Source of the DNA: Bacteroidales bacterium
GTDB taxonomy: Bacteria; Bacteroidota; Bacteroidia; Bacteroidales; UBA932
Assembly: GCA_017558775.1 (NCBI GenBank)
Contig: JAFYTP010000081.1
Coordinates: forward strand, 1-35,062
Length of the DNA stretch: 35,062 nt
Reading direction: 5' to 3'
Shown here: one piece after another, positions 15,097-31,216 of the stretch
How positions within the stretch are numbered: the first letter of the stretch is position 1
Layout: each line of letters opens with the position of its first letter
Notes under the pieces: generated by a model
The model's input: only the letters and a program-made list of their open reading frames with translations
The model's database searches: none
Told to the model about the DNA's origin: nothing
Translations under genes and position numbers: made by a program

Positions 15097-15119
15097 GTCC
15101 CGAATAATTCCTATATTTG
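15091..15119 (+). promoter_or_regulatory. Promoter of the DUF6377-type regulator gene
   Basis: TTG (15091-15093, at the M64 stop), 18 nt, then TATATTTG (15112-15119) fits the -33/-7 pattern. The box ends 6 nt before the ATG at 15126, predicting a leaderless or nearly leaderless transcript. Confidence 0.6.
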
Positions 15120-15125
15120 TGTGCT

Positions 15126-16760
15126 ATGTGCACAAAGGTTCTCGTCCGTTTGATCTGCGCGGCTGCCCTCCTGTCGGCCGCCGCATGCGGACCGCGTGGC
15201 GACCTGGACCATTCCACCCGGAAACTGCTCGGCGAGCTGGACGGCTACGTGGCCGCCCGGGATGTGTATACCGCCCGCAAGATGGACCAGATGGACGCGC
15301 TCCGCAAGCTGTGCCGGACCACGGAGGATCCCGACCACCGCTACGATCTGGAGATGTCGATCGCCGAGGAGTACTTCGCCTTCAGCTTCGATTCCACTCA
15401 GGCCTACTTGAAACACTGTCAGGACCTGGCCTTGAAGATGAAAGACCAGGAACGCTATAACCGAGCTTCCATCGAACTGGGCCATCTGTATGCCAAGGCC
15501 GGCAACTATCTGGAGGCCAACAGCCTGCTGTACGGACAAATCGACACCAGCGCGCTTTCGGAAGCGCTGATGACGGACTACCTGTATTACCTGTATGACT
15601 TCAGCATGGACCTGGCGGGGAATTCCGGCATGGTGGAGCGGCTTTCCATCCCGCCGGCGGCCTCGTTCCGGCAACGGCTGCTGGACCTGCTGCCCAAGGA
15701 CAGCGACCGGTGGCGCACCCTGCTGCGGGACCGCCTGACGGAGGAGGACCGTCTCGCCTCGGCCGATAGCGTGGCCCATCTCCTGCTCGCCGGCACCACT
15801 CCGGAGGAGCACGTCTATGCCATTTACGCATTCCATCTCTCCGATATCGCCGAGCGCGACGGCCGTCCTACGGACCGGATGGCCTGGCTGATCCGCTCGG
15901 CGGAATGCGACATGATGAACGCCGTCCGGGACTATGCCTCCTTGACGATGGTGGCGCAGAATATCCTCTCTTACGACGTGGACCGTTCGTTCCGTTATCT
16001 CCGGATCGCGCAGGAAGACGCGTTGGCCTACAACGCCAAGCTCCGGCCGTGGCAGATTTCCCGCTTCCTGATGGAAGTGGAGGACGCCTATTCCGCCCGC
16101 CAGTCCCGTTCCCGGCTCTTCTCGATGGTGGCCGCCATCCTGCTGGCGATCATGGTGCTGACCCTTTCCGTCATCACGTGGTTCCTGGTAACCCGTTCCC
16201 GGAAGCTTACCCGGATGCGGGCCCTGCTGGAAAGCAACAACGCCCAGCTGGCCGCCGCGAACGCGGAACTCAACGTGCTGAACAAGCAGATTTCCAAGGC
16301 CGACAAGGTGAAGGAGGAGTATATTGTCGATTTCTTGCAGGGGCTTTCCGAGCAGGTGGCTCTCCTGCGGTCGGAAGACAACCGCTTCCGAAACTTGCTT
16401 AAACAGGGCAAGTCGGACCAGCTGTTCAAAGAGTTGGCCATTTCCGAACGTTCGGAGAGAGCGTTGGAAGAATTCTATCGCAAATTCGACGAGACCTTCC
16501 TGGCTCTCTATCCCGACTTCGTGGAGCAGTTCAACGCCCTGTTGCAGGAGGATGCGCGGATCGTTCCGCCCAAGGGAAGGCTCACGACGGAGCTCCGGAT
16601 TTTCGCCCTGATCCGCCTCGGAATGGACGATTCCAAGAAGATCGCGACGATGCTGGATTACTCCGTCAGTACCATTTATAACCATAAGGTCGCCATCAAG
16701 AATGCGGCCCTCGGGGACCGGAGCAAGTTCGAGGAACAGGTGAAAATGATTGGAAAGTAG
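15126..16760 (+). CDS. DUF6377-type membrane-anchored PUL regulator (TPR sensor, TM, coiled coil, HTH)
   Basis: A 544-residue protein starting at ATG 15126; the TTG at 15117 lies in the promoter box. It has a lipoprotein-like or signal-anchor N-terminus (SAAACGPRG), a helical TPR-like periplasmic region to about residue 325, one transmembrane segment (~331-357), a cytoplasmic coiled coil (RALLESNNAQLAAANAELN), and a C-terminal module with a LuxR-like helix-turn-helix (TTELRIFALIRLGMDDSKKIATMLDYSVSTIYNHKV, from ~485). This layout is that of DUF6377 proteins, which in Bacteroidetes commonly sit beside susC/susD and are thought to regulate them. It lies directly upstream and codirectional with the PUL, so it probably senses a sugar ligand in the periplasm and controls the susC promoter (inference). 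Confidence 0.85.
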   Translation: MCTKVLVRLICAAALLSAAACGPRGDLDHSTRKLLGELDGYVAARDVYTARKMDQMDALRKLCRTTEDPDHRYDLEMSIAEEYFAFSFDSTQAYLKHCQDLALKMKDQERYNRASIELGHLYAKAGNYLEANSLLYGQIDTSALSEALMTDYLYYLYDFSMDLAGNSGMVERLSIPPAASFRQRLLDLLPKDSDRWRTLLRDRLTEEDRLASADSVAHLLLAGTTPEEHVYAIYAFHLSDIAERDGRPTDRMAWLIRSAECDMMNAVRDYASLTMVAQNILSYDVDRSFRYLRIAQEDALAYNAKLRPWQISRFLMEVEDAYSARQSRSRLFSMVAAILLAIMVLTLSVITWFLVTRSRKLTRMRALLESNNAQLAAANAELNVLNKQISKADKVKEEYIVDFLQGLSEQVALLRSEDNRFRNLLKQGKSDQLFKELAISERSERALEEFYRKFDETFLALYPDFVEQFNALLQEDARIVPPKGRLTTELRIFALIRLGMDDSKKIATMLDYSVSTIYNHKVAIKNAALGDRSKFEEQVKMIGK

Positions 16761-16966: not shown

Positions 16967-19900
16967 ATGAAAAAATTTGCTTCCCTAATCCTTGCATTAG
17001 GATTGAGCCTGGCGGCATTGGCACAGAACGCGACCCTGCGGGGTGTGGTTCTGGACAGTGAAAGCCAGCCGGTTGTCGGCGCATTCGTAGTTGAGCAGGG
17101 AACTGCCAACGGTACCATCACCGGTACGGACGGCGCGTTCTCCATCACCACGCCCAGCGGCGCGGCGGTGGAGATCTCCTGCATCGGCTTCGTGACGCAG
17201 ACTCTCATCAATGAAGGAGCGCAGAACGTGGTCGTCGTCCTGCAGGATGACGCCGAAATGCTCGAGGAGACCGTCGTCATCGGTTACGGTGTCCAGAAGA
17301 AGGCGGTGGTGACCGCCGCCATTTCTTCGGTGACGTCCGATGATCTGAAGGTCCAGTCCCAGAACCGCGTGGACAACATGCTCCAGGGCATGACCTCCGG
17401 TGTCCAGGTCACCCAGAACTCCGGCGCCCCGGGCGCCAGCTCCACGGTGATCGTCCGCGGTATCGGTTCCATCAACCACGCGTCTCCGCTTTATATTGTC
17501 GATGGTATGCCGGCCGGCAGCATCGACTACATCAACCCGAACGACATCGAGCGTATCGACGTGCTCAAGGACGCCGCCTCCGCGGCCGTTTATGGCGCGC
17601 GTGCGGCTGACGGTGTCATCCTGGTGACCACCAAGTCCGGTGCGGAAGGGAAGCCCCTCGTGACCTACGACTTCTCCTACGGTCTCCAGAATCCCTGGCG
17701 GAAGCCCTCCGTGCTCAACGCCACGGAATATGCCGTCATGATGAACGAGGGTATGCTCAATGCCGGAAACGCTCCCATCTACGACAATCCTTACGCCCTG
17801 GGCGAGGGGACGGACTGGGTGGACGCCATCTTCGACAAGAACTCTCCTATCGTCAAGCACGACATCAATGTCTCCGGCGGCAACAACCGGGTCAATTACA
17901 GCGTGTCCGGCGGCTACCTCTCCAACAAGGGTACCATCGGCGGACGGTTCGATCAGTCCTACTATGACAGAATGACCATGCGCGAGAACATCGGCATCAC
18001 CCTGTTCGACGAGTCCGCGAACCGCAACTGGCTCAACAAGCTCACCTTCGGCAACCAGGTTTCCTTCGCCCATATCAAGTCGGCCGGCATCTCGGCCAAC
18101 TCCGAGTATGGTTCTCCGCTGGGCTCCGCCCTGGGCATGTCCCCGCTGGATCCCATCTATGCCGACGCCGCCGAAGAGGCCCGCTACCAGTCCCTCTATC
18201 CGGCCGGTTATCCTTATATTATCCGCGACAAGACGGGCCGGGCTTACTTCATCGCCGACGGCGGTACCTATAACGAGCAGGCCAACCCGATCGCGATGCT
18301 GGACCGTCCGCACGGCTACAGCAGCACCGACAAGATCGTCGGCGGCCTGAACTTCGAACTCCAGCTGATCGACGGCCTGAAGTTCCGCAACGCCGTCACC
18401 CTGGACCTTTCCTATGTCTATGGCCACAGCTATACCGAGCAGTATTTCCTGACCTCCAAGAACTACAGCCTAGACACGGTCACTTCCAGCACGGTGTATG
18501 ACAAGAACGGAAACGCGTCCACCGTGGACAAGATCAATTACGGTTCCTCCGCGAGCCAGAGCATGAACCGCTACTACAGCTATCAGGTGGAAAACACCCT
18601 GACCTATGACAAGGTGTTCGGCAAGCACACTCTGAACGTGGTGCTCGGCCAGTCCGCCTATATGTCCAGTTCCTCCTACGTGGGCGCCTCCGCCCGGGGT
18701 CTCCAGTATCCGGACGATCCTTGGAAGATCAGCGTGGACAACACCCTCGGCCAGCAGAACGACGGCGACCGCAACGGTTGGGGCCGTTGGAATTCCATTC
18801 CTTACAGCATCCTTTCCTACTTTGGCCGTGTGTCCTACAACTACGACGAGCGTTTCATGGCGCAGGCCACCGTCCGCCGGGACGCTTCCTCGCACTTCGG
18901 TCCGAACAACAAGTGGGGTACCTTCCCGTCCGCTTCCATCGGCTGGAACATCAAGAACGAGGAGTTCCTCAAGTACAACCCCGTCATCTCCATGGCCAAG
19001 CTCCGCGCTTCCTGGGGTATCAACGGTAAGGACAACCTGGGCGACTTCCTGTACGCGGTGTACGCCCAGTCCGGCAACAACTACGTCTTCGGTTCCGGCG
19101 CCAACGGTACCGAGAGCATCAACATCGGCGTGAAGGCCTCCGGCCTCGCGAACCCCAACGCCAAGTGGGAACAGTCCATCCAGACCGACCTCGGTGTGGA
19201 CCTGGGCCTCTGGGGCAACAAGTTCACCGCCACTGTCGACTACTACATCAAGGACGCCTCTGGCATGCTGATGCAGATGCAGGTGCCTTCCTACGCGGGC
19301 GACTCCGCCCCGACCGGCAACGTGGGCACGATGCGCAACTCCGGTGTCGAAATCGACCTCGGCTGGCGCAGCGCCATCGGCAGTTTCAATTACGGCATCA
19401 AGGCCAACGCTTCCTACAACCGTAACAAGCTGACCAAGCTGGCCGACGACGCCTCCTACATCACCACCTCCAGCCACAAGATCGGCACCCTCACCCGCGG
19501 CGAAGTGGGCGAAGTGTTCCCGTACTTCTGGGGCTGGAAGACCGACGGCGTGTTCCAGAACTGGGATGAGATCAATGCCTATGTGAATGCCGATGGCAAC
19601 CTGATCCAGCCCAACGCGCAGCCCGGCGACTTCCGCTGGAAGGATATCGACGGCAACGGCGTCATCAACGACAACGACCGCACCAAGCTGGGCAAGGGCA
19701 TTCCTGACTGGACCTTCGGCCTCACGCTCACCATGGACTGGAAGGGCTTCGACTTCAGCATGCTCCTCCAGGGCCAGCTCGGCGCCCAGACGCTCAACGT
19801 CACCCGCCGTACCGACCTGTACTACATCAATCTCCCGAAGTCCATCCTCAACCGCTGGACCGGCGAAGGTTCCACCAACCAGTATCCCCGTTTCGCCTTT

Positions 19901-20662
19901 GATTCGGCCAACGAGAACTACCGCGTGTCCGACTATTGGATGGAAGACGCCTCCTTCCTGCGCGCCCGTAACGTCCAGTTGGGTTACACCCTGCCTGCCA
20001 GCGTCACCCAATGGGCTTTCGTCTCCCGCATGAGAGTGTACGCGCAGGTCGAGAACGCATTCACGCTCACCAAGTACACCGGCTGCGATCCGGAAGTTTC
20101 CGGCGGTTTCGCGGAAGTCGGCGTCGACCGCGGTGTCTATCCTCAGAACAGGACCGTCACCTTCGGTGTGAACGTGAACTTCGGCGGAGGTCCCCGCATC
20201 GCCGCGGCCGCTCCCGTCGTGTATAACGCTCCCGCCGTGCAGCAGGTGGTCGAGAAGATCGTCGAAAAGATCGTCGAGAAGGAAGTCCCCGTGGAGGTCG
20301 TGAAGGAAGTGGTCAAGGAAGTGCCCGCGGGCAAGCTCACGGATACTGTCAATGACGACATCTACTTCCTGATCGGCAAGGCGGAAATCCGTCCCGACGA
20401 GGCCTTCAAGCTGGGCCGCATCGCCCAGATCCTGGCCGACAACCCGGATGCCAAGATCACCATCACCGGCCATGCCGATTCCGGCACCGGCACTCCTGAG
20501 ATCAACAAGGAACTGTCCGAGCAGCGCGCCGCCACCGTGGCCGAGATGCTCAAGAAGGCCGGCATCGCCGCCAGCCGCATTTCCTACTCTGCCACCGGCA
20601 CTGACGCGAATGCCTCCGCTTCGCCTGAAAGCAACCGCGTCGCTGTCTGCATCGTCAAATAA
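16967..20662 (+). CDS. SusC-family TonB-dependent glycan transporter fused to a C-terminal OmpA-like domain
   Basis: A 1231-residue outer-membrane importer. Order: signal peptide (cleaved near ALAQ, ~20); carboxypeptidase-regulatory-like domain (22-95, GVVLDSESQPVVGAFV); TonB box ETVVIGYG (101-108); plug (115-230, VDNMLQGMTSGVQV, LYIVDGMPAGSIDYINPNDIERIDVLKDAASAAVYGARAADG in pieces); 22-strand barrel ending with RTVTFGVNVNF at 1072, the usual SusC C-terminus. Instead of stopping, it continues through a Val/Glu/Lys-rich linker (1094-1121, VVEKIVEKIVEKEVP-type repeats) into an OmpA-like domain (~1126-1231) with TGHAD, NKELSEQRA and a final NRVAVC. Asp1171 and Arg1187 match the residues that bind diaminopimelate in OmpA. 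Barrel C-termini face the periplasm, so the extra domain is placed to grip peptidoglycan. It is 18 nt upstream of susD. Confidence 0.93.
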   Translation: MKKFASLILALGLSLAALAQNATLRGVVLDSESQPVVGAFVVEQGTANGTITGTDGAFSITTPSGAAVEISCIGFVTQTLINEGAQNVVVVLQDDAEMLEETVVIGYGVQKKAVVTAAISSVTSDDLKVQSQNRVDNMLQGMTSGVQVTQNSGAPGASSTVIVRGIGSINHASPLYIVDGMPAGSIDYINPNDIERIDVLKDAASAAVYGARAADGVILVTTKSGAEGKPLVTYDFSYGLQNPWRKPSVLNATEYAVMMNEGMLNAGNAPIYDNPYALGEGTDWVDAIFDKNSPIVKHDINVSGGNNRVNYSVSGGYLSNKGTIGGRFDQSYYDRMTMRENIGITLFDESANRNWLNKLTFGNQVSFAHIKSAGISANSEYGSPLGSALGMSPLDPIYADAAEEARYQSLYPAGYPYIIRDKTGRAYFIADGGTYNEQANPIAMLDRPHGYSSTDKIVGGLNFELQLIDGLKFRNAVTLDLSYVYGHSYTEQYFLTSKNYSLDTVTSSTVYDKNGNASTVDKINYGSSASQSMNRYYSYQVENTLTYDKVFGKHTLNVVLGQSAYMSSSSYVGASARGLQYPDDPWKISVDNTLGQQNDGDRNGWGRWNSIPYSILSYFGRVSYNYDERFMAQATVRRDASSHFGPNNKWGTFPSASIGWNIKNEEFLKYNPVISMAKLRASWGINGKDNLGDFLYAVYAQSGNNYVFGSGANGTESINIGVKASGLANPNAKWEQSIQTDLGVDLGLWGNKFTATVDYYIKDASGMLMQMQVPSYAGDSAPTGNVGTMRNSGVEIDLGWRSAIGSFNYGIKANASYNRNKLTKLADDASYITTSSHKIGTLTRGEVGEVFPYFWGWKTDGVFQNWDEINAYVNADGNLIQPNAQPGDFRWKDIDGNGVINDNDRTKLGKGIPDWTFGLTLTMDWKGFDFSMLLQGQLGAQTLNVTRRTDLYYINLPKSILNRWTGEGSTNQYPRFAFDSANENYRVSDYWMEDASFLRARNVQLGYTLPASVTQWAFVSRMRVYAQVENAFTLTKYTGCDPEVSGGFAEVGVDRGVYPQNRTVTFGVNVNFGGGPRIAAAAPVVYNAPAVQQVVEKIVEKIVEKEVPVEVVKEVVKEVPAGKLTDTVNDDIYFLIGKAEIRPDEAFKLGRIAQILADNPDAKITITGHADSGTGTPEINKELSEQRAATVAEMLKKAGIAASRISYSATGTDANASASPESNRVAVCIVK

Positions 20663-20680: not shown

Positions 20681-22186
20681 ATGAAAAAGATAGTATTTGC
20701 ACTCTGTGCGCTTGCCGTCCTGCTGTCCGCCTGCTCCAAGGATTTCATCAATCCGAAGCACAACAGCTCCGAACCGCTTGACGAATACTTCAATACGCCG
20801 GAGCGTCTCTTCCAGTGCCTGGTGGCCGCCTACGACCCCCTCGAGTGGTACGACTACGCTTTCGGCCAGTATGACAACCTCCACCTCATCTTTGACGTGA
20901 TGGGTGACGACGTGTACGCCGGCGGCTCCAACGAGGGCGACCAGCCGATCATCGTGAAGACCCACTACTACACCGCGACTTCCACCGACGTCTGCAACCA
21001 GATGTGGACGGTCAACTACTCCGGTATCAACCGCGCCGCCACGCTCATCAAATACATCGACGGAGCTGAAGGCGTGAGCGAGGAGACCAAGAAGCTCTAT
21101 GTGGCCGAAGCCAAGGTTCTCATGGCCTATTACTACAATATGCTGTGGAAGCTCTGGGGCAACGTTCCCTACTGGGAGGAGCTGCTCGAGGCCCCGTACA
21201 TCGCCCCGCAGCTGGGCCACGACGAGGTCTATGCCAACTTCATCAAGCTCATCGAGGACGCCATCGCCCTCAACGTCCTGCCGATGAAGGCCGGCGTGGG
21301 TGACGAAGGCCGCGTGACCAAGGCTATGGCCTACATGCTGTACGCCGAGGCCGTCATGTACCAGAACGACCAGTCCCGCTACCAGACCGCCCTCAACTAC
21401 ATGAAGGAGATCATCGCCAGCAACCAGTACTCCCTCGTGGCCGATTTCGCCGGCATCTGGGAAGAGTCCGGCGAGTGGTGCGACGAATCCATCTGGGAAA
21501 TCAATTACATCTCCGAAGGTGGTATCCGCGACTGGGGCAACTCCATCGCCACCGGCGGTCAGGTGAACTCCATCCTCACCGGCATCCCCGCCCCGAAGAA
21601 CGTGCCCGACTACCACGAAGGCTGGGGCTTCGGCACCATCGCCAAGTCCGCTTATGACATGTATGAAGATGACGACATCCGCAAGGACGGCGGTATCCTG
21701 AACTTCGAGAAGTACGCCGCTTCCCACCCCGGTGCGGAATACACCCCGCGCTGGCAGGATACGGGCTTTTGGAATCTCAAGTACATCGCCCGCGAAGGCG
21801 GTAACCACGGTTACAAGGCCTCCGACAACGTCAACTACTGCAACAACGAGCGTATCTACCGCTATGCCGAGACCTTGCTGAACGCCGCCGAGCTTTCCGT
21901 CCTCCTGGGACAGGATGGCAGCAGCTACCTCCAGCAGGTCCGCGACCGCGCCCACTGCCACGACACCGGCACGACCCGCGAGGACATCATCCAGGAGCGC
22001 CACAAGGAGTTCGTGGGCGAGGGCAAGCGTTATTGGGACCTGGTCCGCAGCGGCCTCGCCGCATCCGTCCTCAAGGCGGCCAACCACGAGTACCGCCGGA
22101 ACGACTGGACCGAGAACAAGAAGTACTGGCCCATTCCGCAGGGCGAGATCGACAAGGATCCGAACCTCGTGCAGAACAACTATTAA
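20681..22186 (+). CDS. SusD/RagB-family glycan-binding lipoprotein
   Basis: A 501-residue surface lipoprotein (signal peptide ending LLSACSKDF) that caps the SusC barrel and binds glycan. The N-terminal SusD_RagB signature region (PLDEYFNTPERLFQCLVAAYDPL), the TPR helices (AEAKVLMAYYYNMLWKLWGNVPYWEE, the classic RAxxYFxLxxxFGxVP position), and the C-terminal block (IIQERHKEFVGEGKRYWDLVRSG, KYWPIPQGEIDKDPNLVQNNY) are all typical. It lies 18 nt after the susC fusion and 12 nt before the glycan-binding protein gene, with the same strongly biased codon usage, so all three are one operon. Confidence 0.96.
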   Translation: MKKIVFALCALAVLLSACSKDFINPKHNSSEPLDEYFNTPERLFQCLVAAYDPLEWYDYAFGQYDNLHLIFDVMGDDVYAGGSNEGDQPIIVKTHYYTATSTDVCNQMWTVNYSGINRAATLIKYIDGAEGVSEETKKLYVAEAKVLMAYYYNMLWKLWGNVPYWEELLEAPYIAPQLGHDEVYANFIKLIEDAIALNVLPMKAGVGDEGRVTKAMAYMLYAEAVMYQNDQSRYQTALNYMKEIIASNQYSLVADFAGIWEESGEWCDESIWEINYISEGGIRDWGNSIATGGQVNSILTGIPAPKNVPDYHEGWGFGTIAKSAYDMYEDDDIRKDGGILNFEKYAASHPGAEYTPRWQDTGFWNLKYIAREGGNHGYKASDNVNYCNNERIYRYAETLLNAAELSVLLGQDGSSYLQQVRDRAHCHDTGTTREDIIQERHKEFVGEGKRYWDLVRSGLAASVLKAANHEYRRNDWTENKKYWPIPQGEIDKDPNLVQNNY

Positions 22187-22198
22187 TACCAGGCAATC

Positions 22199-24679
22199 AT
22201 GAAAAGAATCTGGCAATATATCGCAATCGCGGCGCTGGCTGTTTCCGCTGCCGCCTGTACTCCTGAGTATCCGGTCCTGAGCTCCGCGGGCCTGCCGCAG
22301 GCGTCGGACCTGGACGTGACCATCTCGGTGGACCAGGAGACCAACTATGTCACCTTTGTGATGAACAACAAGGGGATGGTTCCCGTGTGGATCTTCGGCG
22401 ACCAGAAGATTGACGGAAAGGCCTCCAAGAAATACTCCTACACCGAGAACGGCGTCTCCCTCCGCTTCCGCGACGCGGGTGAATACACCGTCGAGGTGAA
22501 GGCCTACAACGCCAACGGCCTTTCCCAGGGCTCCCAGGTGCTGTCCTTCACCCTGAACAACACCTACCGCGACCCGTTCGATCCGTCCCCGTACGTCAAG
22601 GCCATTTCCGGCGGCGCGTCCGTCGACTGGGTGTGGAACAGCACCGAGAACGGGCACTTCGGCTGCGGCCCCGTGGGCAATCCGCTGGGCTGGTGGTCCT
22701 GCGACGCCAACGGCAAGAAGGGCTTCCTGTATGACGACGTGATGACCTTCGACTCCGAAGGCAACTACACCTTCAACCCCGGCGACGGCCAGGCTTATGC
22801 CAACAAGGGCTCCGAGTACAAGGCCGAGTATAAGACCGCCGATGAGGACTACCTCTTCCAGACGGAGCAGAAGACCTCCAAGTACACCTTCGAGAACAAC
22901 TGGAACGACGCCGGCATCGAGGAGATCTACCTCGTGCTGGATTCCGGCAGCGAACTCTCCTATGTGCCGCACAAGAGCATCGTGGAAGAGCCCCGCTATC
23001 AGGTGATGGAGACCAAGACCTCCAATATGAAGAAGAAGATCCAGCTGATGGGTACTGTCTTCACGCCCGATAACCCCGACGGTATCTCCTGGTACTACGA
23101 GTTCGTCCCGAAGGGTTCCAACCCGGACGCCGCCGATCCGCTGTTCGGCCTGGAAAGCAAGACCTGGGTGCTGGACAACGAGTCCGCCGGTTACATGGGT
23201 TGCGGTCCCGACTTCGGCAGCTCCGGAAGCTGGTGGAGCGCCGGCCCGCACGAGAAGGACAACTTCGGCGTGGTCGATGACGAGATTACTTTCTACGCGA
23301 ACGGCAAATATGTGTTCGACCCGGGTGAGGGCGGTATGGTCTACTGCAACTGGGAGTCCGGCTGGCGTCCCGACGGTTACTACTCCGGCGACGGCAGCAC
23401 CGACTACGACGCCCCGGCCGAGCGGATGGAATCCACCTATGTCCTGGGCAGCGACTCCACCGGCGACTACATCGAACTTCCTGCGGGCGTTCTCTATGGC
23501 TACATCCCGAAGCCGCAGGTGCTCTCCGAGACCAACCGTCTGTATATCAAGGAACTGACGGCGAACAAGCTCTTCGTTGTCGCGAACTTCGACGGCATCT
23601 CCTGGCAGTTCATCTATCGTCCGAAGGACGGCCAGGGCGGCGGCGACACCCCGCAGCCGGATCCTTACGATTCTTACAACCCCGACGTGGAGCTGGATGT
23701 GAACGGCGCCGGCAATCTCTGGGCGGCCGCGACGGTGACCAACGACTATTGGTATGCCGATGGCGGCTGGGGCCAGATCAGCGATCCCGAGGCCGAGACG
23801 CTGCCCGGCAACGGTCTGAAGGTGGTCATCCCCGCCGGTATCGGCGGCAGCGAATGGCAGGGCCAGACCAAGTTCCATACGGACATCTTCGCCAGCAAGG
23901 ACAAGAAGTACGACTTCGGCATCACCCTCGAGGCCGATGAGGACAACACCGTCACCCTGAAGCTCGCCTGGGAAGGCAACGACAATGACAATGCCTTCTT
24001 CTACGCGAACGACATCGTGCTGAAGGCTGACATGCCCAGAACCGTCAAGTTCAAGGAGATTTTCCCGAAGAACAAGGACGGAGAGGCCATCGACTATGAC
24101 AAGGTCGTCCTCTTTGTCGACCTGGGCCGTACCCCGGCGGGCACCACTGTCCTCATGAAGGATATCTGCCTGCAGGAAAGCACCGTCCTGGACCCGAATT
24201 CCGACCGGAATCTCTGGAAGAGCGCCACGGTCACCAATGACTATTGGTATGCCAATGGCGGCTGGGCCCAGATCAGCGATCCCGAGGCCGAGACGCTGCC
24301 CGGCAACGGCCTGAAGGTGGTCATCCCCGATGGTATCGGCGGCAGCGAATGGCAGGGCCAGACCAAGTTCCATACGGACATCCCCGCCAGCAAGGACAAG
24401 AAGTACGACTTCGCCATCACGCTGGAGGCGGACGAGGACAACACGCTGACCCTGAAGCTCGCCTGGGAAGGCAATGACAACGACAACGCCTTCTTCTACC
24501 GGAATGACGTCCAGGTCAAGGCCGATGAACCCTTCACGTTCAAGGCGGTCAACATTTTCCCGCAGAACAAGGACGGAGAGGCCATCGACTATGACAAGGT
24601 CGTGCTCTTCGTGGACCTGGGCCGGACCCCGGCCGGTACGACCGTCGCGATGAAGGATATTGTTTTCCAGGAGCATTAG
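22199..24679 (+). CDS. Modular surface glycan-binding lipoprotein (PKD-like domain, two duplicated module pairs)
   Basis: An 826-residue lipoprotein (signal peptide ending SAAACTPEY) in the position of PUL surface glycan-binding proteins. Residues ~35-120 form an Ig/PKD-like domain (RFRDAGEYTVEVKAYNANG). Residues ~140-310 and ~318-475 are two copies of an aromatic module sharing GCGP, WW, DD..TF and an F.PG.G..Y.N pattern, offset by about 179 residues. Residues 506-660 and 671-825 are two nearly identical beta-sandwich modules (NLW..ATVTNDYW...; 165-residue period), probably CBM4/9-like carbohydrate-binding modules. A Gly/Pro linker (GQGGGDTPQPDP) separates the pairs. Family names of the modules are tentative; the surface-binding role follows from the lipobox, the modular layout and the operon. 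Confidence 0.8.
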   Translation: MKRIWQYIAIAALAVSAAACTPEYPVLSSAGLPQASDLDVTISVDQETNYVTFVMNNKGMVPVWIFGDQKIDGKASKKYSYTENGVSLRFRDAGEYTVEVKAYNANGLSQGSQVLSFTLNNTYRDPFDPSPYVKAISGGASVDWVWNSTENGHFGCGPVGNPLGWWSCDANGKKGFLYDDVMTFDSEGNYTFNPGDGQAYANKGSEYKAEYKTADEDYLFQTEQKTSKYTFENNWNDAGIEEIYLVLDSGSELSYVPHKSIVEEPRYQVMETKTSNMKKKIQLMGTVFTPDNPDGISWYYEFVPKGSNPDAADPLFGLESKTWVLDNESAGYMGCGPDFGSSGSWWSAGPHEKDNFGVVDDEITFYANGKYVFDPGEGGMVYCNWESGWRPDGYYSGDGSTDYDAPAERMESTYVLGSDSTGDYIELPAGVLYGYIPKPQVLSETNRLYIKELTANKLFVVANFDGISWQFIYRPKDGQGGGDTPQPDPYDSYNPDVELDVNGAGNLWAAATVTNDYWYADGGWGQISDPEAETLPGNGLKVVIPAGIGGSEWQGQTKFHTDIFASKDKKYDFGITLEADEDNTVTLKLAWEGNDNDNAFFYANDIVLKADMPRTVKFKEIFPKNKDGEAIDYDKVVLFVDLGRTPAGTTVLMKDICLQESTVLDPNSDRNLWKSATVTNDYWYANGGWAQISDPEAETLPGNGLKVVIPDGIGGSEWQGQTKFHTDIPASKDKKYDFAITLEADEDNTLTLKLAWEGNDNDNAFFYRNDVQVKADEPFTFKAVNIFPQNKDGEAIDYDKVVLFVDLGRTPAGTTVAMKDIVFQEH
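23714..24673 (+). repeat. Intragenic tandem duplication (495-bp period) encoding two CBM-like modules
   Basis: The segments starting at 23714 and 24209 are nearly identical over long stretches at both DNA and protein level. Each unit encodes about 155 residues; I count roughly 22 amino-acid differences, clustered around AFFYANDIVLKAD...KFKEIF versus its counterpart. Long synonymous identity suggests a recent duplication or ongoing gene conversion. Confidence 0.9.
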
Positions 24680-24680
24680 G

Positions 24681-25811
24681 ATGCGGTCTTTGATGAACAT
24701 AAAAGGGTTGCTGCTGCTTTGTGCGGCAACCCTTTTCACCCAGTCTTGCGGCGGAAAGCCCACGGACGATCCCGTGAAGGCCACCTTGTCCGTGACACCG
24801 AGCGCCATCAACGTCTCCTACGAGGCCACGACGGAAGTGCTTTCCGTGACGGCCACTGGCGACTGGGGCGTGTCGGCGGCCGACAAGTCGTGGTGCTCCG
24901 TGTCGCCTTCCGGCGGCATCAAGGGGACTTCCTCCGTCAAGGTGAAACTGGATGCCAACCGGACCGGCGAAGTCCGGGAGAACTCGATCACTTTCGTGTA
25001 CGGCTCGGAGACATTGACAGTCCCCGTCCGGCAGGACCTCAACGAGGAGGATGTGCCCAAGCCCACCCCCGAAATGGTCATTCCCGACGGCTATGTGCTG
25101 GACTGGAACGACGAGTTCGACCAGGAGGACGGCAGTTCTCCGGACACCCGCCTCTGGCGCTTCGAGAACAAGCCCGCGGGCTGGGTGAACCATGAGCTGC
25201 AGACCTATGCGGGTATCGGCCGGAACGGCGTGAAGACCGCCTTCATCGAGGGCGGCGCGCTGAACATCCGCGCCAGCAAGGAGGGCAAGGACATCATCTC
25301 CGCCCGGATGTATTCCCAGAAATCCTGGACCTACGGCTATATGGAAGCCGCCATCTGGCTGCCGAAGGGCAAGGGCACCTGGCCCGCCTTCTGGATGATG
25401 CCGGACGACTTCAGCCGGGGCTGGCCGGGATGCGGGGAGATCGACATCATGGAAGAGGTGGGCTATCACGCCAACTACACTTCCTCCTCCATCCACTGCA
25501 TGAAGTATTATCATTCTATCGGCACGCAGAAAACCCACGAGCAGTATACGGCCGGGGCCGAAGACGGTTACCACGTATATGCCGTGGAGTGGACGCCGGA
25601 CGCCCTCGTTTTCTACGTGGATGGCAAACGGCACTTCACGTTCAACAACGACAAGGCCGGAAACGACGACACGTGGCCGTTCAACAAGAATTTCTACCTC
25701 ATTCTGAATCTTGCCTGGGGCGGCGACTGGGGCGGCAGCCAGGGGGTTGACGAGACAGCCCTCCCGTGCACGATGAAAGTGGACTATGTCCGCGTATTCA
25801 AGAAGAAGTAA
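24681..25811 (+). CDS. GH16 endo-beta-glucanase lipoprotein with BACON domain
   Basis: A 376-residue lipoprotein (signal peptide ending TLFTQSCGG). ATG 24681 follows the previous stop by 1 nt; ATG 24693 is an equally good start. Residues ~40-125 form a BACON domain (LSVTPSAINVSYEATTEVLSVTATGDWGVSA, SWCSVSPSGG), a Bacteroidetes spacer or carbohydrate-associated module. The catalytic domain (~140-375) is GH16: WPAFWMMP and the active-site motif GEIDIMEEVG, with Glu253 as nucleophile, Asp255 and Glu258 as acid/base. The lack of an insertion between these residues fits laminarinase/lichenase-type GH16 (subfamily 3-like). It should cleave internal beta-1,3 (or mixed-linkage) glucan bonds at the cell surface. 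GH3 follows after 3 nt. Confidence 0.92.
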   Translation: MRSLMNIKGLLLLCAATLFTQSCGGKPTDDPVKATLSVTPSAINVSYEATTEVLSVTATGDWGVSAADKSWCSVSPSGGIKGTSSVKVKLDANRTGEVRENSITFVYGSETLTVPVRQDLNEEDVPKPTPEMVIPDGYVLDWNDEFDQEDGSSPDTRLWRFENKPAGWVNHELQTYAGIGRNGVKTAFIEGGALNIRASKEGKDIISARMYSQKSWTYGYMEAAIWLPKGKGTWPAFWMMPDDFSRGWPGCGEIDIMEEVGYHANYTSSSIHCMKYYHSIGTQKTHEQYTAGAEDGYHVYAVEWTPDALVFYVDGKRHFTFNNDKAGNDDTWPFNKNFYLILNLAWGGDWGGSQGVDETALPCTMKVDYVRVFKKK

Positions 25812-25814
25812 AAG

Positions 25815-28061
25815 ATGAAACAGACCCGAACCCTTTGCCTGGCGGCCTGCCTGGCGCTGGCGCTCTCTTGTGGAGCGCCCAAGACCGACAGCACCATCGG
25901 GGCTTCCCCGGAGGTGGAACGGCGCGTGGAGAAGATCCTCGCCCAAATGACCCTGTCCGAGAAGATCGGCCAGATGAACCAGGTCTCCGCCGGAGGCGAC
26001 GTGTCCAACTACACGGACGCGCTCCGGAAAGGGCAGATCGGCTCCATCCTGAACGAGGTGGATCCGGTGAAGATCAATGAATATCAGCGTATTTGCGTGG
26101 AAGAATCCCGCTTGGGCATCCCGCTGCTGGTGGCCCGCGACGTGATCCACGGCTACCATACCGTGTTCCCGATTCCGCTGGGTCTGGCCGCGACTTTCGA
26201 CCCCGACCTGGTGGAGCAAGGTGCGCGGGTGGCCGCTTTGGAAGCGACGGCGCAGGGCGTCCGGTGGACGTTCTCGCCGATGCTGGACATCGCCCGCGAC
26301 CCGCGCTGGGGCCGCATCGCCGAGGGCAGCGGAGAAGATACCTATCTGGATACCCGGATGGCCGAGGCGATGGTCCGCGGCTATCAGGGCCGGCAGCTGG
26401 ACACCACGTCCATGGCCGCCTGCATCAAGCATTTCGTGGGCTACGGCGCCGCGGAAGGCGGCCGTGACTATAACAGCACGTATTTGACCGAGCGGCAGTT
26501 GCGCAATGTCTACCTGCCGCCGTTCCAGGCGGCCGTGGAGGCCGGCGCGATGACGCTGATGACTTCCTTCAACGACAACGACGGCGTCCCGTCCACCGGC
26601 AACACCTTCGTGGTGAAGGACGTCCTCCGCGGCGAGTGGGGCTTTGACGGCCTCGTGGTCACGGACTGGAATTCGATGGGCGAGATGATCAACCACGGAT
26701 TCGGCGTGGACCGCAAGGATGTGGCCCGGAAGGCGCTGCAGGCGGGTGTCGATATGGACATGATGACCTACGGCTTCCTGTCACACCTGGAAGAGCTGGT
26801 CAAGACCGGCGCCGTGAAGGAGTCGGACATCGACAATGCCGTCCGCAACATCCTCCGGGTGAAGGTCCGGCTGGGGCTCTTCGAGCATCCTTATGTCGAT
26901 GTGGAGGCGGGCGCTGCCGTGCAGTACGCTCCGGACCACCTGGCCTCGGCGCAGCGGTCCGCGGAGGAGTCCGCCATCCTGCTCAAGAACGACGGCGTCC
27001 TGCCCCTGAAGGCCGATGCCGTCCGCAACATCCTCGTGACCGGTCCGATGGCCGACGCCCCGCACGACCAGCTGGGCACCTGGGCCTTCGACGGGGAGAA
27101 ATCCCATACGGTCACGCCCCTGAAGGCGCTGGAAGCGCGCTTCCCGGGCAAGGTGACCTATGTCCCCGGCCTCCGGTACAGCCGTGAGAAGCGGGACGCT
27201 TTCCCGGATGTCGTCGCCGCCGCCCGCCGCGCCGATGTGGTGCTGGTGTTCCTGGGCGAGGAGGCCATCCTCTCCGGAGAGGCCCATTCCCTCGCCGACC
27301 TGAACCTGAAGGGCTCCCAGAGCGAACTGCTCGCGGCCCTGAAGGCGACCGGGAAGCCCGTCGTCGCGACGGTGATGGCCGGCCGCCCGCTCACGGTCGA
27401 ACGCGACCTTCCCAACTGCGGGGCGATGCTCTACGCGTTCCATCCCGGAACGATGGGCGGTCCCGCGCTGGCGAACCTGCTGTTCGGCGACGTGAACCCT
27501 TCCGGAAAGACGCCCATCACGTTCCTGCGGACCGTGGGTCAGGCGCCGCTGTACTACTGCCACAACATGACCGGACGTCCCTACAATGGGGAAACCCTCA
27601 TCGACGATATCGGGATGGAAGCCGGCCAGACCTCTCTGGGCAACACGTCCTATTATCTGGATTATGGCGCTTATCCGCTGTTCCCCTTCGGGTATGGTCT
27701 CAGCTATACGCAATTCACCTATTCCGATATCGCCCTGGACCGGACGTCCTACGGCGCGGACGATTGCATCACGGTATCATTGACACTGGCCAATACCGGC
27801 GAGTATGACGGTACGGAAGTGGTGCAGGTGTACGTCCGCGACCTGGTGGGTTCCATCACCCGTCCGGTGAAGGAGTTGAAAGCGTTCGAGCGCGTGTCCC
27901 TGAAGGCCGGCGAAAGCCGGAAACTGGAGCTGCAGATTCCCGTGTCCAGCCTGGCCTTCTACGGCCTGGACGGCGTGAAAAAAGTGGAGCCTGGCGACTT
28001 CCAGCTCTGGGTGGCCGGCGACAGCGCCTCCGGGGAACCGGTTCCCTTTACGGTTAAATAG
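25815..28061 (+). CDS. GH3 beta-glucosidase, periplasmic (BglX-like)
   Basis: A 748-residue exported enzyme; its signal peptide ends ALALSCGAPK, so it may also be a lipoprotein. It has the three-part GH3 layout: an N-terminal (beta/alpha)8 domain starting RVEKILAQMTLSEKIGQMNQ, with ARDVIHGYHTVFPIPLGLAATFDPDLVE and the substrate-binding KHFVGYG; the nucleophile Asp284 in GLVVTDWNSMGEM; an alpha/beta sandwich domain (SAILLKNDGVLPLK, LVFLGEEAILSGEAHS); and a C-terminal fibronectin-III-like domain (YGLSYTQFTYSD...VQVYVRDLVGSITRPVKELKAFERV). It should release glucose from the oligosaccharides imported by SusC. It lies between GH16 and GH30. Confidence 0.95.
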   Translation: MKQTRTLCLAACLALALSCGAPKTDSTIGASPEVERRVEKILAQMTLSEKIGQMNQVSAGGDVSNYTDALRKGQIGSILNEVDPVKINEYQRICVEESRLGIPLLVARDVIHGYHTVFPIPLGLAATFDPDLVEQGARVAALEATAQGVRWTFSPMLDIARDPRWGRIAEGSGEDTYLDTRMAEAMVRGYQGRQLDTTSMAACIKHFVGYGAAEGGRDYNSTYLTERQLRNVYLPPFQAAVEAGAMTLMTSFNDNDGVPSTGNTFVVKDVLRGEWGFDGLVVTDWNSMGEMINHGFGVDRKDVARKALQAGVDMDMMTYGFLSHLEELVKTGAVKESDIDNAVRNILRVKVRLGLFEHPYVDVEAGAAVQYAPDHLASAQRSAEESAILLKNDGVLPLKADAVRNILVTGPMADAPHDQLGTWAFDGEKSHTVTPLKALEARFPGKVTYVPGLRYSREKRDAFPDVVAAARRADVVLVFLGEEAILSGEAHSLADLNLKGSQSELLAALKATGKPVVATVMAGRPLTVERDLPNCGAMLYAFHPGTMGGPALANLLFGDVNPSGKTPITFLRTVGQAPLYYCHNMTGRPYNGETLIDDIGMEAGQTSLGNTSYYLDYGAYPLFPFGYGLSYTQFTYSDIALDRTSYGADDCITVSLTLANTGEYDGTEVVQVYVRDLVGSITRPVKELKAFERVSLKAGESRKLELQIPVSSLAFYGLDGVKKVEPGDFQLWVAGDSASGEPVPFTVK

Positions 28062-28076
28062 TGACAGACCAGGCCG

Positions 28077-29531
28077 ATGAAGATGTTACCCCTGATGCTT
28101 TCCGCAGCTTTGCTGCTGGGTTGCGACCGGAAGCCGGTCGACAATCCGGAACCTCCCGTGCCCGTCGATGGCCCCGTCGCCACCGTCTACACCACTTCCG
28201 TGGCCAAGGAACGGTTCGCGGAGAGTACGTTGCCCCTGGGCAAGCCGGAGGACGTGCATTTCTACAAGGTGGAGCGCAGCGGAGAGACGTTCCAGGAGGT
28301 GGACGGATTCGGCCTGGCCATCACCCAGGCCAGCTGTTACAACCTGCAAACGATGCCCGCGGAGGAGAGGACGGCCTTCCTGACGGAAATCTTCAGTCGG
28401 GAGAAGGGCCTCGGCTCTTCTCTGATCCGCGTGTGCATCGGCGGCTCCGATTTCTCGATGGACGAGTTCACCTGGTGCGACGAGCCGGGGATGGAGAATT
28501 TTGCCGTGCATGTGCTGGATGAACAATGGCTGTTTCCGGTCCTGGACCAGATCTTCAAGATCAATCCGGACGTGAAGATCATCGGCTCGCCCTGGAGCTG
28601 TCCCCGGTGGATGAAGATGTCCGACAACGGCGGTTCCTACGACAAATGGACGGCCGGCCGGTTGAATCCCGCGCATTATCAGGAATATGCCGATTATTTC
28701 GTGCGCTGGATCAAGGAGATGGAGAAGCGCGGCTATCCCATCTATGCCATCACGCTGCAGAATGAGCCTTTGAACAGGGGGAATTCCATGTCGCTGTATA
28801 TGACTTGGGAAGAGCAGCGGGATTTCATCAAGCAGGCCGTCGGACCGGCGTTCCGCACCGCGGGAATCAAGACCAAGATCCTGCTCTTCGACCACAATTA
28901 CAACTACGACGACATCGCCTCCCAGCAGGACTACCCGATCCGGATCCTGGAAGACGCGGAGGCGGCGCAGTATGTGGCGGGATCGGCCTGGCACAACTAT
29001 GGGGGAAAGGTGTCCACGTTGGACAGGATGCACAGCGCCTTCCCCGATAAGGAAATCTATTTCACGGAGGCTTCCATCGGCTCATGGGGGTATTCCTTCG
29101 ACGGCAATCTCATCGGCGATTTCCGGGACATTTTCCTGGGGACGCTGGGTCGGTATGGAAAGGGTGTCACCCTGTGGAACTTGATGCTGGATGACCAGGG
29201 GAAACCCTATCGCCCCGGGGGATGCAGCACATGTTTTGGCGCCGTGACCCTTTCCTCCACCGACCACAAGACCATCACCCGCAACAGCCACTATTACAAC
29301 GTGGCGCATTGCTCCAAGGTCTTGCAGCCGGGCGCCGTGCGGCTGGGCACCAAGGGCTATGAATCTTCCGGCCTGACGTATCAATGGTACCGCAATCCGG
29401 ACGGCTCCCAGGCGCTGTTGCTGCTCAATGAGGGTTCTTCGGATGCGATGGTGAATTTCGTGACGGACAAGTATTCAATCAGTTGCAAGGTTCCCGCCAA
29501 AGCCATCCAGTCCATCCGCTGGGAGGAGTGA
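28077..29531 (+). CDS. GH30 glycosidase lipoprotein (probable beta-1,6-glucanase or beta-glucosidase)
   Basis: A 484-residue lipoprotein (signal peptide ending LLLGCDRK). The (beta/alpha)8 domain shows GH30 landmarks: QEVDGFGLAITQASCYNL, RVCIGGSDFS, IIGSPWSCPRWMK, acid/base Glu230 in TLQNEP and nucleophile Glu331 in YFTEASIG. A C-terminal beta domain (TRNSHYYNVAHCSKVLQPGAVRLG...) is the side domain of clan GH-A GH30 enzymes. Among characterised relatives, bacterial and fungal enzymes with this layout cut beta-1,6-glucan, while others are glucocerebrosidases or beta-glycosidases. In a PUL with GH16 and GH3, beta-1,6-glucanase fits best (inference). The start is 15 nt after GH3. Confidence 0.9.
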   Translation: MKMLPLMLSAALLLGCDRKPVDNPEPPVPVDGPVATVYTTSVAKERFAESTLPLGKPEDVHFYKVERSGETFQEVDGFGLAITQASCYNLQTMPAEERTAFLTEIFSREKGLGSSLIRVCIGGSDFSMDEFTWCDEPGMENFAVHVLDEQWLFPVLDQIFKINPDVKIIGSPWSCPRWMKMSDNGGSYDKWTAGRLNPAHYQEYADYFVRWIKEMEKRGYPIYAITLQNEPLNRGNSMSLYMTWEEQRDFIKQAVGPAFRTAGIKTKILLFDHNYNYDDIASQQDYPIRILEDAEAAQYVAGSAWHNYGGKVSTLDRMHSAFPDKEIYFTEASIGSWGYSFDGNLIGDFRDIFLGTLGRYGKGVTLWNLMLDDQGKPYRPGGCSTCFGAVTLSSTDHKTITRNSHYYNVAHCSKVLQPGAVRLGTKGYESSGLTYQWYRNPDGSQALLLLNEGSSDAMVNFVTDKYSISCKVPAKAIQSIRWEE

Positions 29532-29542
29532 GAATAATTTCC

Positions 29543-29550
29543 TATCTTTA
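29543..29550 (+). promoter_or_regulatory. -7-like box before the CotH-family gene
   Basis: TATCTTTA differs from TAnnTTTG only at the last base. It lies in the 23-bp gap after GH30 and ends 4 nt before the ATG at 29555. No -33 TTG is seen. It could give this last PUL gene its own leaderless transcript. Confidence 0.35.
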
Positions 29551-29554
29551 TCGA

Positions 29555-31216
29555 ATGCGTCCGAGATTTTTTGTCCATCTTTCTCTCGTGGCTGCCCTTT
29601 TCGGGGCGGTCGCCTGCCATGAAGACCAGATCGAACCGGAGCCGGAACCCCGGCTGGAGTCCGTGTCCGTATCGGCAACCACCCTGGTCCTGGCGGCGGA
29701 GGGGAGTGTGGAGGTTCCCTTCCGGGTGGAGGATCCGGGCTATGCTTTCAATTATTCGGTGGACGATCCGAAGTGCCAGGTCCAGCTGAAGGGGAAGGAC
29801 GGGAAAACCCCGACGGAGTTCCGGATTTCCCGGATCACTCCCGGTACGACGCGTGGCACTTACACCGCCGTCCTGACGGATCTGGGGCTGGGGAAGGCTT
29901 ATTCCCGGGAGGTCCGGCTGCTGGTGGGGAACAACAACTATCTGTCAAGCGTTTCCTATATGCCGTCCGCCTACTTCGAGGTGCGCAGCGAAAAGTCGGG
30001 TGAGGAGACCCCGGTGCTGAATACCGGCCTCCCGATCGTGTATGTCGATACGAAAAACGGCTGGCAGATTACCTCCAAGACCACCTTCGTCCCCGGCACG
30101 CTCCGGATTCAGGGCGAAGGCGGATACGAAGGATTGGAAGCGGTCAATTGCGAAATCCGCGGCCGTGGGAACACGACCTGGGAGTGGCCCAAGAAACCGT
30201 ACCTGGTCAAGCTGGAGGAGAAACAAAAGATCTTCGGGATGCACAAGCACAAGCGCTGGGTGCTGCTGGCCAATTTCATGGACAGGACCCTGATGCGGAA
30301 TCTGGTGTCGATGAAGGTGGCGTCGATGACGAACCTCGACTGGACGCCCGGCTGCGTGCCGGTAGAGCTTGTCCTGAACGGGAAGCACAAGGGGTCTTAT
30401 CTCCTGATCGAGCAGGTGCGCGTGGACAACCACCGGGTGAACATCACGGAGATGACGAAGGACGACAATACCGGCGACGCCGTCACCGGCGGCTATCTGC
30501 TGGAGCTGGACTTCCACTATGACAACGAGGTGCAGTGGGGCGATCCGCACGGAGGCTGCGTGCAGTGGGGGGCCAACGGCGGCATTCCCTTCGGCGTAAA
30601 GTATCCCGACCCCGACGACCTCACCTCCCAGCAATTGACCTATATCAAGAAATACGTCTATGACACGGCGGAGGCCATTTACGGCGATAACTTCACGGAT
30701 CCGGAAAAGGGGTATGCGAAGTATATCGACGTCGATTCCTTCATCGATTACTGGATCGTTTTCGAGGTGATGGGCAATCACGAACTGGGCAATCCGGGCA
30801 GTGTGTTTATGCACAAGGACCGTGGCGGAAAACTCGTGGCGGGCCCTTGCTGGGACTTCGACTGGGGCGTGCTTTCGTTCAGGACTTCGTCGCAGGCTGA
30901 ATACGACCTGCTCAATGACAAAGCCATCTGGTACGCCCGACTGTTCCAGGATCCCGCCTTCCGGGCGAAGGTGAGGGCGCGTTTCCAGGAACTGCTGCCG
31001 GAACTGCAGAAGATTCCGGATTATATGGATGAGTGTGAGAAACTGCTCACGGAGTCAGCCAAGCTGAATTTCCAGATGTGGAATCCGGCCGACGATGCTT
31101 CGATGAACGGCTGGCAGATCATCAACGGCGACGAGAACATGACGTTCCATAACGCCATTGCGCTTCTGAAGGAAAATTATAAGAAGCGTCTGGATGTGAT
31201 TTCCAGGAAACTTTAA
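29555..31216 (+). CDS. CotH-kinase-family lipoprotein
   Basis: The 553-residue protein begins at ATG 29555 with a lipoprotein signal peptide (FGAVACHED). An Ig-like N-terminal region (SVSVSATTLVLAAEGSVEVPFRV) precedes a CotH-like domain from about residue 170: CEIRGRGNTTWEWPKKPYLVKL, FGMHKHKRWVLLANFMDRTLMRNLV, NGKHKGSYLLIEQV, GYLLELDF and, near the C-terminal side, SFIDYWIVFEVMGNHELGNPGSVFMHKD followed by AGPCWDFDWG. These are the conserved blocks of the family, including the candidate metal-binding DFDWG. CotH from Bacillus is a spore-coat protein kinase; the role of the many Bacteroidetes lipoprotein members is unknown, though they often lie in glycan loci. It ends convergently with tsaE, both stops sharing TTAA. 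Confidence 0.88.
   Translation: MRPRFFVHLSLVAALFGAVACHEDQIEPEPEPRLESVSVSATTLVLAAEGSVEVPFRVEDPGYAFNYSVDDPKCQVQLKGKDGKTPTEFRISRITPGTTRGTYTAVLTDLGLGKAYSREVRLLVGNNNYLSSVSYMPSAYFEVRSEKSGEETPVLNTGLPIVYVDTKNGWQITSKTTFVPGTLRIQGEGGYEGLEAVNCEIRGRGNTTWEWPKKPYLVKLEEKQKIFGMHKHKRWVLLANFMDRTLMRNLVSMKVASMTNLDWTPGCVPVELVLNGKHKGSYLLIEQVRVDNHRVNITEMTKDDNTGDAVTGGYLLELDFHYDNEVQWGDPHGGCVQWGANGGIPFGVKYPDPDDLTSQQLTYIKKYVYDTAEAIYGDNFTDPEKGYAKYIDVDSFIDYWIVFEVMGNHELGNPGSVFMHKDRGGKLVAGPCWDFDWGVLSFRTSSQAEYDLLNDKAIWYARLFQDPAFRAKVRARFQELLPELQKIPDYMDECEKLLTESAKLNFQMWNPADDASMNGWQIINGDENMTFHNAIALLKENYKKRLDVISRKL

Follow-up and report, generated by a model that had tools for sequence, protein, structure and literature searches.

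SusC importers with a C-terminal OmpA domain in uncultured Bacteroidales: a tail apparently shared among SusC genes and a putative tether to peptidoglycan

Layout of the fused gene

The present study concerns one gene in a 35,062-nucleotide (nt) stretch of DNA, contig JAFYTP010000081.1 of assembly GCA_017558775.1 (a gut-dwelling Bacteroidales bacterium), the whole of which is termed the window. The gene lies on the forward strand at 16967..20662 (ATG at 16967, TAA at 20660-20662), has zero internal stops and encodes a SusC-OmpA fusion of 1231 amino acids (aa). An original prediction, made from the letters of the window, had placed a SusC transporter and a complete OmpA domain in this single frame, and three lines of evidence bear it out. 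First, TIGR04056 matches residues 23-1072 with 850.4 bits against a curated cut-off of 368.25, indicating a full-length SusC. Second, PF00691 matches residues 1133-1219 with 60.6 bits against a cut-off of 27.2. Third, AlphaFold2 models give plug and barrel, a linker at a predicted local distance difference test (pLDDT) value <50, and a separate OmpA fold. From the N-terminus, the protein carries a CarboxypepD-regulatory-like domain (CarbopepD_reg_2, residues 25-104, 17039..17278; PF13715, 45 bits), the stretch EETVVIGY (residues 100-107, 17264..17287), which was read from the translation and is probably TonB-box-like, a plug domain (residues 115-217, 17309..17617; PF07715), and the SusC barrel (residues 218-1072, 17618..20182), assigned by TIGR04056, the AlphaFold2 model and Foldseek, whose nearest solved folds are SusC 8aa4 and 8a9y (TMt 0.87 and 0.86). 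The barrel terminates in ..FGVNVNF at residue 1072, exactly where the prediction had ended it and where the TIGR04056 match stops, and 159 residues lie beyond this usual end of a SusC at the last strand. These comprise a linker of 57 aa (residues 1073-1129, 20183..20353; pLDDT <50 at 1076-1122), rich in Gly/Ala/Pro and then in Val/Glu/Lys, with the Val/Glu/Lys tract at 1094-1121 as located earlier, and the OmpA C-terminal domain (residues 1130-1231, 20354..20659). In this domain, Asp1171 (gat, 20477..20479) and Arg1187 (cgc, 20525..20527), the pair to which attention had been drawn, align with the D and R of Pal and 9uu2. In known OmpA-type domains such an Asp and Arg pair holds diaminopimelate, and the C-terminus of a SusC barrel lies on the periplasmic side. 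The susD partner follows directly (20681..22186, forward strand; PF07980, 96.7 bits, and PF14322), starting 18 nt past the stop as originally stated.

The protein combines parts that are familiar separately. With SusC/RagA proteins (TIGR04056; the dextran/levan utilisome SusC 8aa4 and 8a9y; RagA), it shares the plug, the barrel and the susD partner, but solved SusC proteins end at the last strand; in 6 of 9 solved sequences, the best stretch runs to residue 1071-1072 of the present protein and, in the solved chain, to the final or penultimate residue. OmpA porins with a C-terminal peptidoglycan-binding domain (9uu2, 3td5, OprF 5u1h) have a small barrel, whereas no small OmpA-type barrel is present ahead of the OmpA domain here, the barrel being that of a SusC importer. 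Closest to the tail itself are OmpA proteins that stand alone in the same genus, with lengths of 361-464 aa (L050-L053, L188, L189 and others); these have a small barrel of their own and, for the most part, other linkers. PorE and Pal carry an OmpA-type domain like that of the tail, but passages of PMC12204202 describe them as lipoproteins and propose PorE as a tether in Bacteroidetes. The window protein is a transmembrane importer, and no lipobox cysteine was found in its N-terminus (MKKFASLILALGLSLAALAQNA, which has no Cys), so it does not qualify as a Pal-type lipoprotein. No description of a SusC-OmpA fusion was found in the open-licence literature, judged mostly by titles and the starts of abstracts.

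Recurrence and movement of the tail

In the genome of the window (G000; 2.63 Mb, 128 contigs, 87.7% complete), 33 SusC proteins exceed the curated cut-off, and the tail was found on 4 of them, C50 (the window), C107, C126 and C59. The three other tails are 67-76% identical to that of the window, and the four barrels are mutually 20-36% identical. Thus, the single fusion described by the original prediction is present, but it is not one capture in one gene, as the tail occurs four times in this genome and on many SusC types. Among 30 SusC frames inspected in G000, 24 stop at the last strand, 4 are fused, one is cut by a contig end (L032) and one ends in a short stub (L035). The best-scoring relative of the window SusC in G000 (L013, C41), 45% identical over the whole barrel, stops exactly at the barrel end; this nearest unfused SusC has ~95 extra residues before the regulatory domain, which we guess from the sequence to be possibly an STN-type domain. 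The stub of L035 (also L190; C111) consists of 15 residues after the barrel (..LGLGGSQKKATPAHNAD), 17 nt before susD; barrel relatives of this protein (L077, L107) are fused, and the stub is perhaps a trace of a lost tail.

The fusion is also widespread in other genomes. Named genomes were scanned by tail, an approach that biases the fused share upward; SusC and OmpA occupied one frame at no fewer than 66 of at least 80 tail-bearing loci from other Bacteroidales, both counts being lower bounds. Intact fused frames occur at 71 loci in ~43 genomes, and a chance origin is excluded because the identical architecture recurs to this extent. In 70 of the 71, an open reading frame (SusD-like or other) begins -16 to +45 nt from the tail stop, the remaining locus running off its contig; among 66 such downstream proteins, 43, 40, 40 and 18 match four SusD families, with overlaps. 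Fused loci with a ruminant organ in the record title (RGIG records, 15 genomes) come from the rumen, reticulum, omasum or abomasum in 26 of 26 cases and from the colon in 0, the base rate being not known. A tail model was built on alignment A4 (69 of the 71 tails, L105 and L130 being left out). Of 400 sampled genomes of the genus, 49 matched the tail profile at E 1e-28. Six of these held only frames of 330-394 aa, that is, stand-alone proteins, which leaves 43 with a fused-type tail, including G135, in which the tail was seen only in a 319-aa frame. The peak count was eight long frames in G156, two of which are equal in length and score and may be copies. In a sample of 393 genomes of the order searched at E 1e-22, no fusion was found outside G000, as the five other matches fell in frames that were 371-400 aa long; when this sample was searched with the Prevotella-type tail discussed below, each of the 10 matches fell in a frame of 374-443 aa. 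Among the matches listed for 395 genomes of the phylum, none outside G000 lay in a frame >926 aa. Both samples are thin, and they miss rare cases, since fused Prevotella genomes exist; the carriers are draft genomes of uncultured bacteria.

The Asp, the Arg and the motif Asn and Leu between them are retained in 71 of 71 tails, and the ratio of nonsynonymous to synonymous substitution rates (dN/dS) of the OmpA domain is 0.07-0.41 in 16 of 16 pairs, indicating purifying selection. Across very different barrels, the linker measures 50-77 aa (quartiles 55 and 60) in 69 of 71 tails, L143 and L147 being left out of the count. The proposal that this linker is of the type found in Bacteroidetes OmpA proteins stands in part: other Bacteroidales have stand-alone OmpA proteins with Val/Glu/Lys linkers (L142, L146, L180), but the nearest stand-alone proteins of the genus mostly have linkers rich in Pro/Glu/Ala. 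Three fused SusC proteins (L049, L247 and L248, in G012 and G156) have coiled-coil-like Ala/Asp/Lys/Leu linkers in place of Val/Glu/Lys.

The histories of barrels and tails were compared directly, with 5 of the 71 fused proteins, which have short barrels, excluded from the barrel comparison and the barrel tree. Among the 2145 pairs of the 66 remaining proteins, 932 have barrels at 20-25% identity, and their OmpA domains show a median identity of 67% (range 27-86). At the two extremes, barrels only 27-29% identical carry tails 86-92% identical in twelve pairs, and barrels 82-94% identical carry tails of only 44-50% in six pairs. In the barrel tree of the 66 fused and 49 unfused SusC proteins, 17 changes between the fused and unfused states are needed, 12 of which are forced by well-supported branches; this is a FastTree tree with many long branches, and it includes two Prevotella rows of separate tail origin. 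In the tail tree, 72 of 75 SusC tails fall in one group (Shimodaira-Hasegawa-like approximate likelihood-ratio test, SH-aLRT, 96), nested in a second group (SH-aLRT 99) that otherwise contains only 12 stand-alone OmpA proteins of the genus, in agreement with the earlier suggestion that an ompA 3' end was captured. The group of 72 includes the three tails with coiled-coil-like linkers, placed beside Val/Glu/Lys ones, and L133. For its number of rows, the tail tree rests on few columns, and it comes from a quick search in which near-duplicate and off-target rows were omitted. Vertical descent of barrel and tail together is ruled out by the identities and by both trees. A single capture, with many later transfers from one SusC gene to another, accounts for both trees, and the tail behaves as an apparently portable cassette that is shuffled between them. 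Gene conversion within genomes was also considered; OmpA domains on different barrels have a mean identity of 0.703 within the same genome (n=42) and 0.671 between genomes (n=1691; label shuffles, p 0.014; L133, L143 and L147 left out), and the signal for it is weak. On balance, we lean towards a single captured ompA 3' end that has been copied, in one Bacteroidales lineage, onto the ends of many unrelated susC genes, with fused and unfused alleles of a given importer coexisting in closely related species, so that the lineage would decide separately for each of its dozens of SusCD importers whether it is fastened to peptidoglycan.

The three tails outside the main group (L143, L147, L244) come from two Prevotella-type genomes. 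Together with L241 and L243, these TonB-dependent receptors resemble the window protein in having an importer barrel followed by an OmpA domain, but they differ in their OmpA lineages and, in L143, L147 and L243, in their linkers; because the OmpA lineages differ in the tail tree, they represent separate captures. L243:2199-6032 (G790) and L241 (G791) are OmpA-tailed receptors whose barrel is of a different type (PF25183), and they occur beside the SusC-OmpA proteins L147, L143 and L244. The fused SusC L133 (also L239; G792), whose tail falls within the main group, is from a yak omasum record named Bacteroidaceae and reflects either a transfer between families or a mislabelled metagenome-assembled genome (MAG).

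The same importer with and without the tail provides a natural control. Full-length orthologues of the window barrel, 83-90% identical, occur in 9 of 250 genomes of the genus; RGIG1532 (L074, 87%) provides a tenth and the window itself is the eleventh. Three of the 11 are fused (window, G148, RGIG1532) and 8 stop at the barrel. A tree of this group with its relatives, from which fragments in G131, G218 and G003 were excluded, requires three changes of state, at least two of them forced. In the unfused genes, the barrel closes with the codon TTC, the stop TAA comes immediately after it, and a 12-nt spacer separates the stop from the start of susD. In the fused genes, the tail continues from TTC, and a different spacer, 17-18 nt long, leads to this same susD. 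In the flanks of the junction, identity to the best unfused relative is still 81-98% over windows of 100-120 nt. Relatives that end at the barrel with a separate OmpA gene had been named as a refuting case; the first half of it holds for the 8 unfused orthologues, but none of them has an OmpA gene between susC and susD. The spacer is the same in all 8 (CAGACnACGGAd), and the final 15 nt of their barrels are almost uniform, only L208 and L209 departing from the rest, at one or two positions. In the fused L016 and L074, the spacer and the barrel end are both of a second type common to the two, and L204 is intermediate. This division makes it unlikely that the 8 unfused genes each lost a tail independently, and the way in which the two spacers are distributed makes recombination of a small cassette, or allele exchange, more probable than repeated loss.

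A putative tether and its alternatives

Herein, we propose that selected SusCD importers have, in this tail, a built-in tether from the outer membrane to peptidoglycan, a reading to which we assign a probability of roughly 0.7. Because the C-terminus of SusC faces the periplasm, the OmpA domain could reach the wall from the periplasmic face through the flexible ~57-residue linker after the last strand, which, if extended, would be long enough to span the distance from membrane to wall. The domain would bind peptidoglycan by gripping the diaminopimelate of the wall, and each such SusCD unit would act as importer and tether at once. The gain might be that chosen importers, and the envelope that surrounds them, are retained and mechanically supported. 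Most simply, the arrangement would have arisen by a single capture of an ompA 3' end in the lineage, after which recombination would have carried it to the 3' ends of other susC genes, possibly helped by the resemblance of their last strands and susD starts. According to passages of PMC12204202, tol-pal has not been identified in Bacteroidetes, and how the outer membrane of Bacteroidota holds on to the wall is an open question. Passages of PMC12611786 place SusCD among the most abundant outer-membrane machines of these bacteria, so a protein that would unite import and anchoring is of interest, as are an envelope anchor apparently shuffled across a large transporter family and the occurrence of one importer with one SusD, tailed and tail-less, in close species.

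Several observations weigh against this proposal. First, the tail is dispensable, in that the 8 unfused orthologues of the window SusC do without it; it was likewise not shown on 29 of the 33 SusC proteins of G000, and 357 of the 400 genus genomes gave no match to a fused-type tail. Second, the linker is predicted to be disordered by AlphaFold2, which would make it a slack leash and not a stiff mount. Third, the low diffusion of E. coli OmpA is reportedly, as worded in the title of Verhoeven 2013, not due to its wall-binding domain. Fourth, carriers are not lacking a tether, as several stand-alone OmpA proteins are retained in them: in 12 genomes rich in fusions, PF00691 matches number 7-15 (4-9 of them outside frames >1000 aa), against 1-5 in 12 genomes without fused-type tails. 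These counts, higher in carriers than in non-carriers, also rule out the tail as a replacement for a lost stand-alone OmpA.

Other functions of the tail may be considered beside the tether to selected importers. The tail might serve the envelope, with SusC merely an abundant barrel used as an extra tether and the identity of the carrier mattering little. This explanation, which is possible but which we would advance only tentatively, fits the presence of the tail on many unrelated SusC types and the lack of an identifiable tol-pal mentioned above; in addition, passages of PMC12611786 rank OmpA, called an outer-membrane-to-wall anchor, and a SusCDE complex above all other outer-membrane components of F. 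johnsoniae in abundance. Yet the 4-9 further OmpA matches of the carriers show that they are not short of tethers, and at most a few SusC proteins are fused per genome. It is somewhat doubtful that the tail retains the importer, keeping tethered SusCD out of outer-membrane vesicles or stopping it from drifting; its patchy presence on chosen importers would fit a choice between retained and released units, and the flexible linker would suit such a role, but a domain of this kind reportedly need not limit diffusion, if the 2013 title is followed. That the tail gives TonB a fixed point, the anchored barrel resisting the load while the motor pulls the plug, appears improbable. ExbD of the Ton motor is reported to bind peptidoglycan in passages of PMC11658791, and the wall could thereby hold both ends of the machine, but a flexible linker of 57 residues would leave slack, and TonB-dependent importers function without tails, the 8 unfused orthologues included. 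A functionless tail acquired by recombination as a neutral hitch-hiker would agree with patchiness at one locus but is very unlikely in view of the invariant Asp and Arg, the low dN/dS, the narrow range of linker length and the many SusC carriers. An assembly or binning artefact, suggested at most by the fact that every carrier is a draft metagenome genome or an uncultured record, has a negligible probability, as the frames are intact at all 71 loci, the junction immediately follows the last strand and is bordered by orthologous sequence on either side, and an assembly chimera, against which the original prediction had already argued, is ruled out by the same fusion and junction in G148 and RGIG1532, by recurrence in dozens of other MAGs and by the syntenic flanks.

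Neighbouring genes

The remaining genes of the locus lie on the same strand as the fusion gene. Upstream is a DUF6377 protein (15117..16760; PF19904, 221 bits), likely a regulator. Downstream of susD are an 826-aa protein without a Pfam match, encoded with internal 495-nt repeats (22199..24679), a GH16 with a BACON domain (24660..25811; Pfam), a GH3 (25815..28061; Pfam), a GH30 near an endo-1,6-beta-glucanase model (28077..29531; 633 bits, below the cut-off of 700) and, at the end of the locus, a CotH protein (29483..31216; Pfam). This gene set, from DUF6377 and SusD through the repeat protein, GH16, GH3 and GH30 to CotH, suggests use of a beta-1,3/1,6-glucan. A scan for promoters and terminators gave no useful signal. 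The tail-less locus of G232 is syntenic, with an M64-type peptidase gene, DUF6377, SusC (90%), SusD (94%), the repeat protein, GH16, GH3 and CotH; no match to GH30 was found in the stretch of the G232 locus that was read, so the window-type locus appears to have gained or lost an enzyme. The ~495-nt repeats of the 826-aa protein also match repeatedly in relatives, and this protein may be a surface glycan-binding protein.

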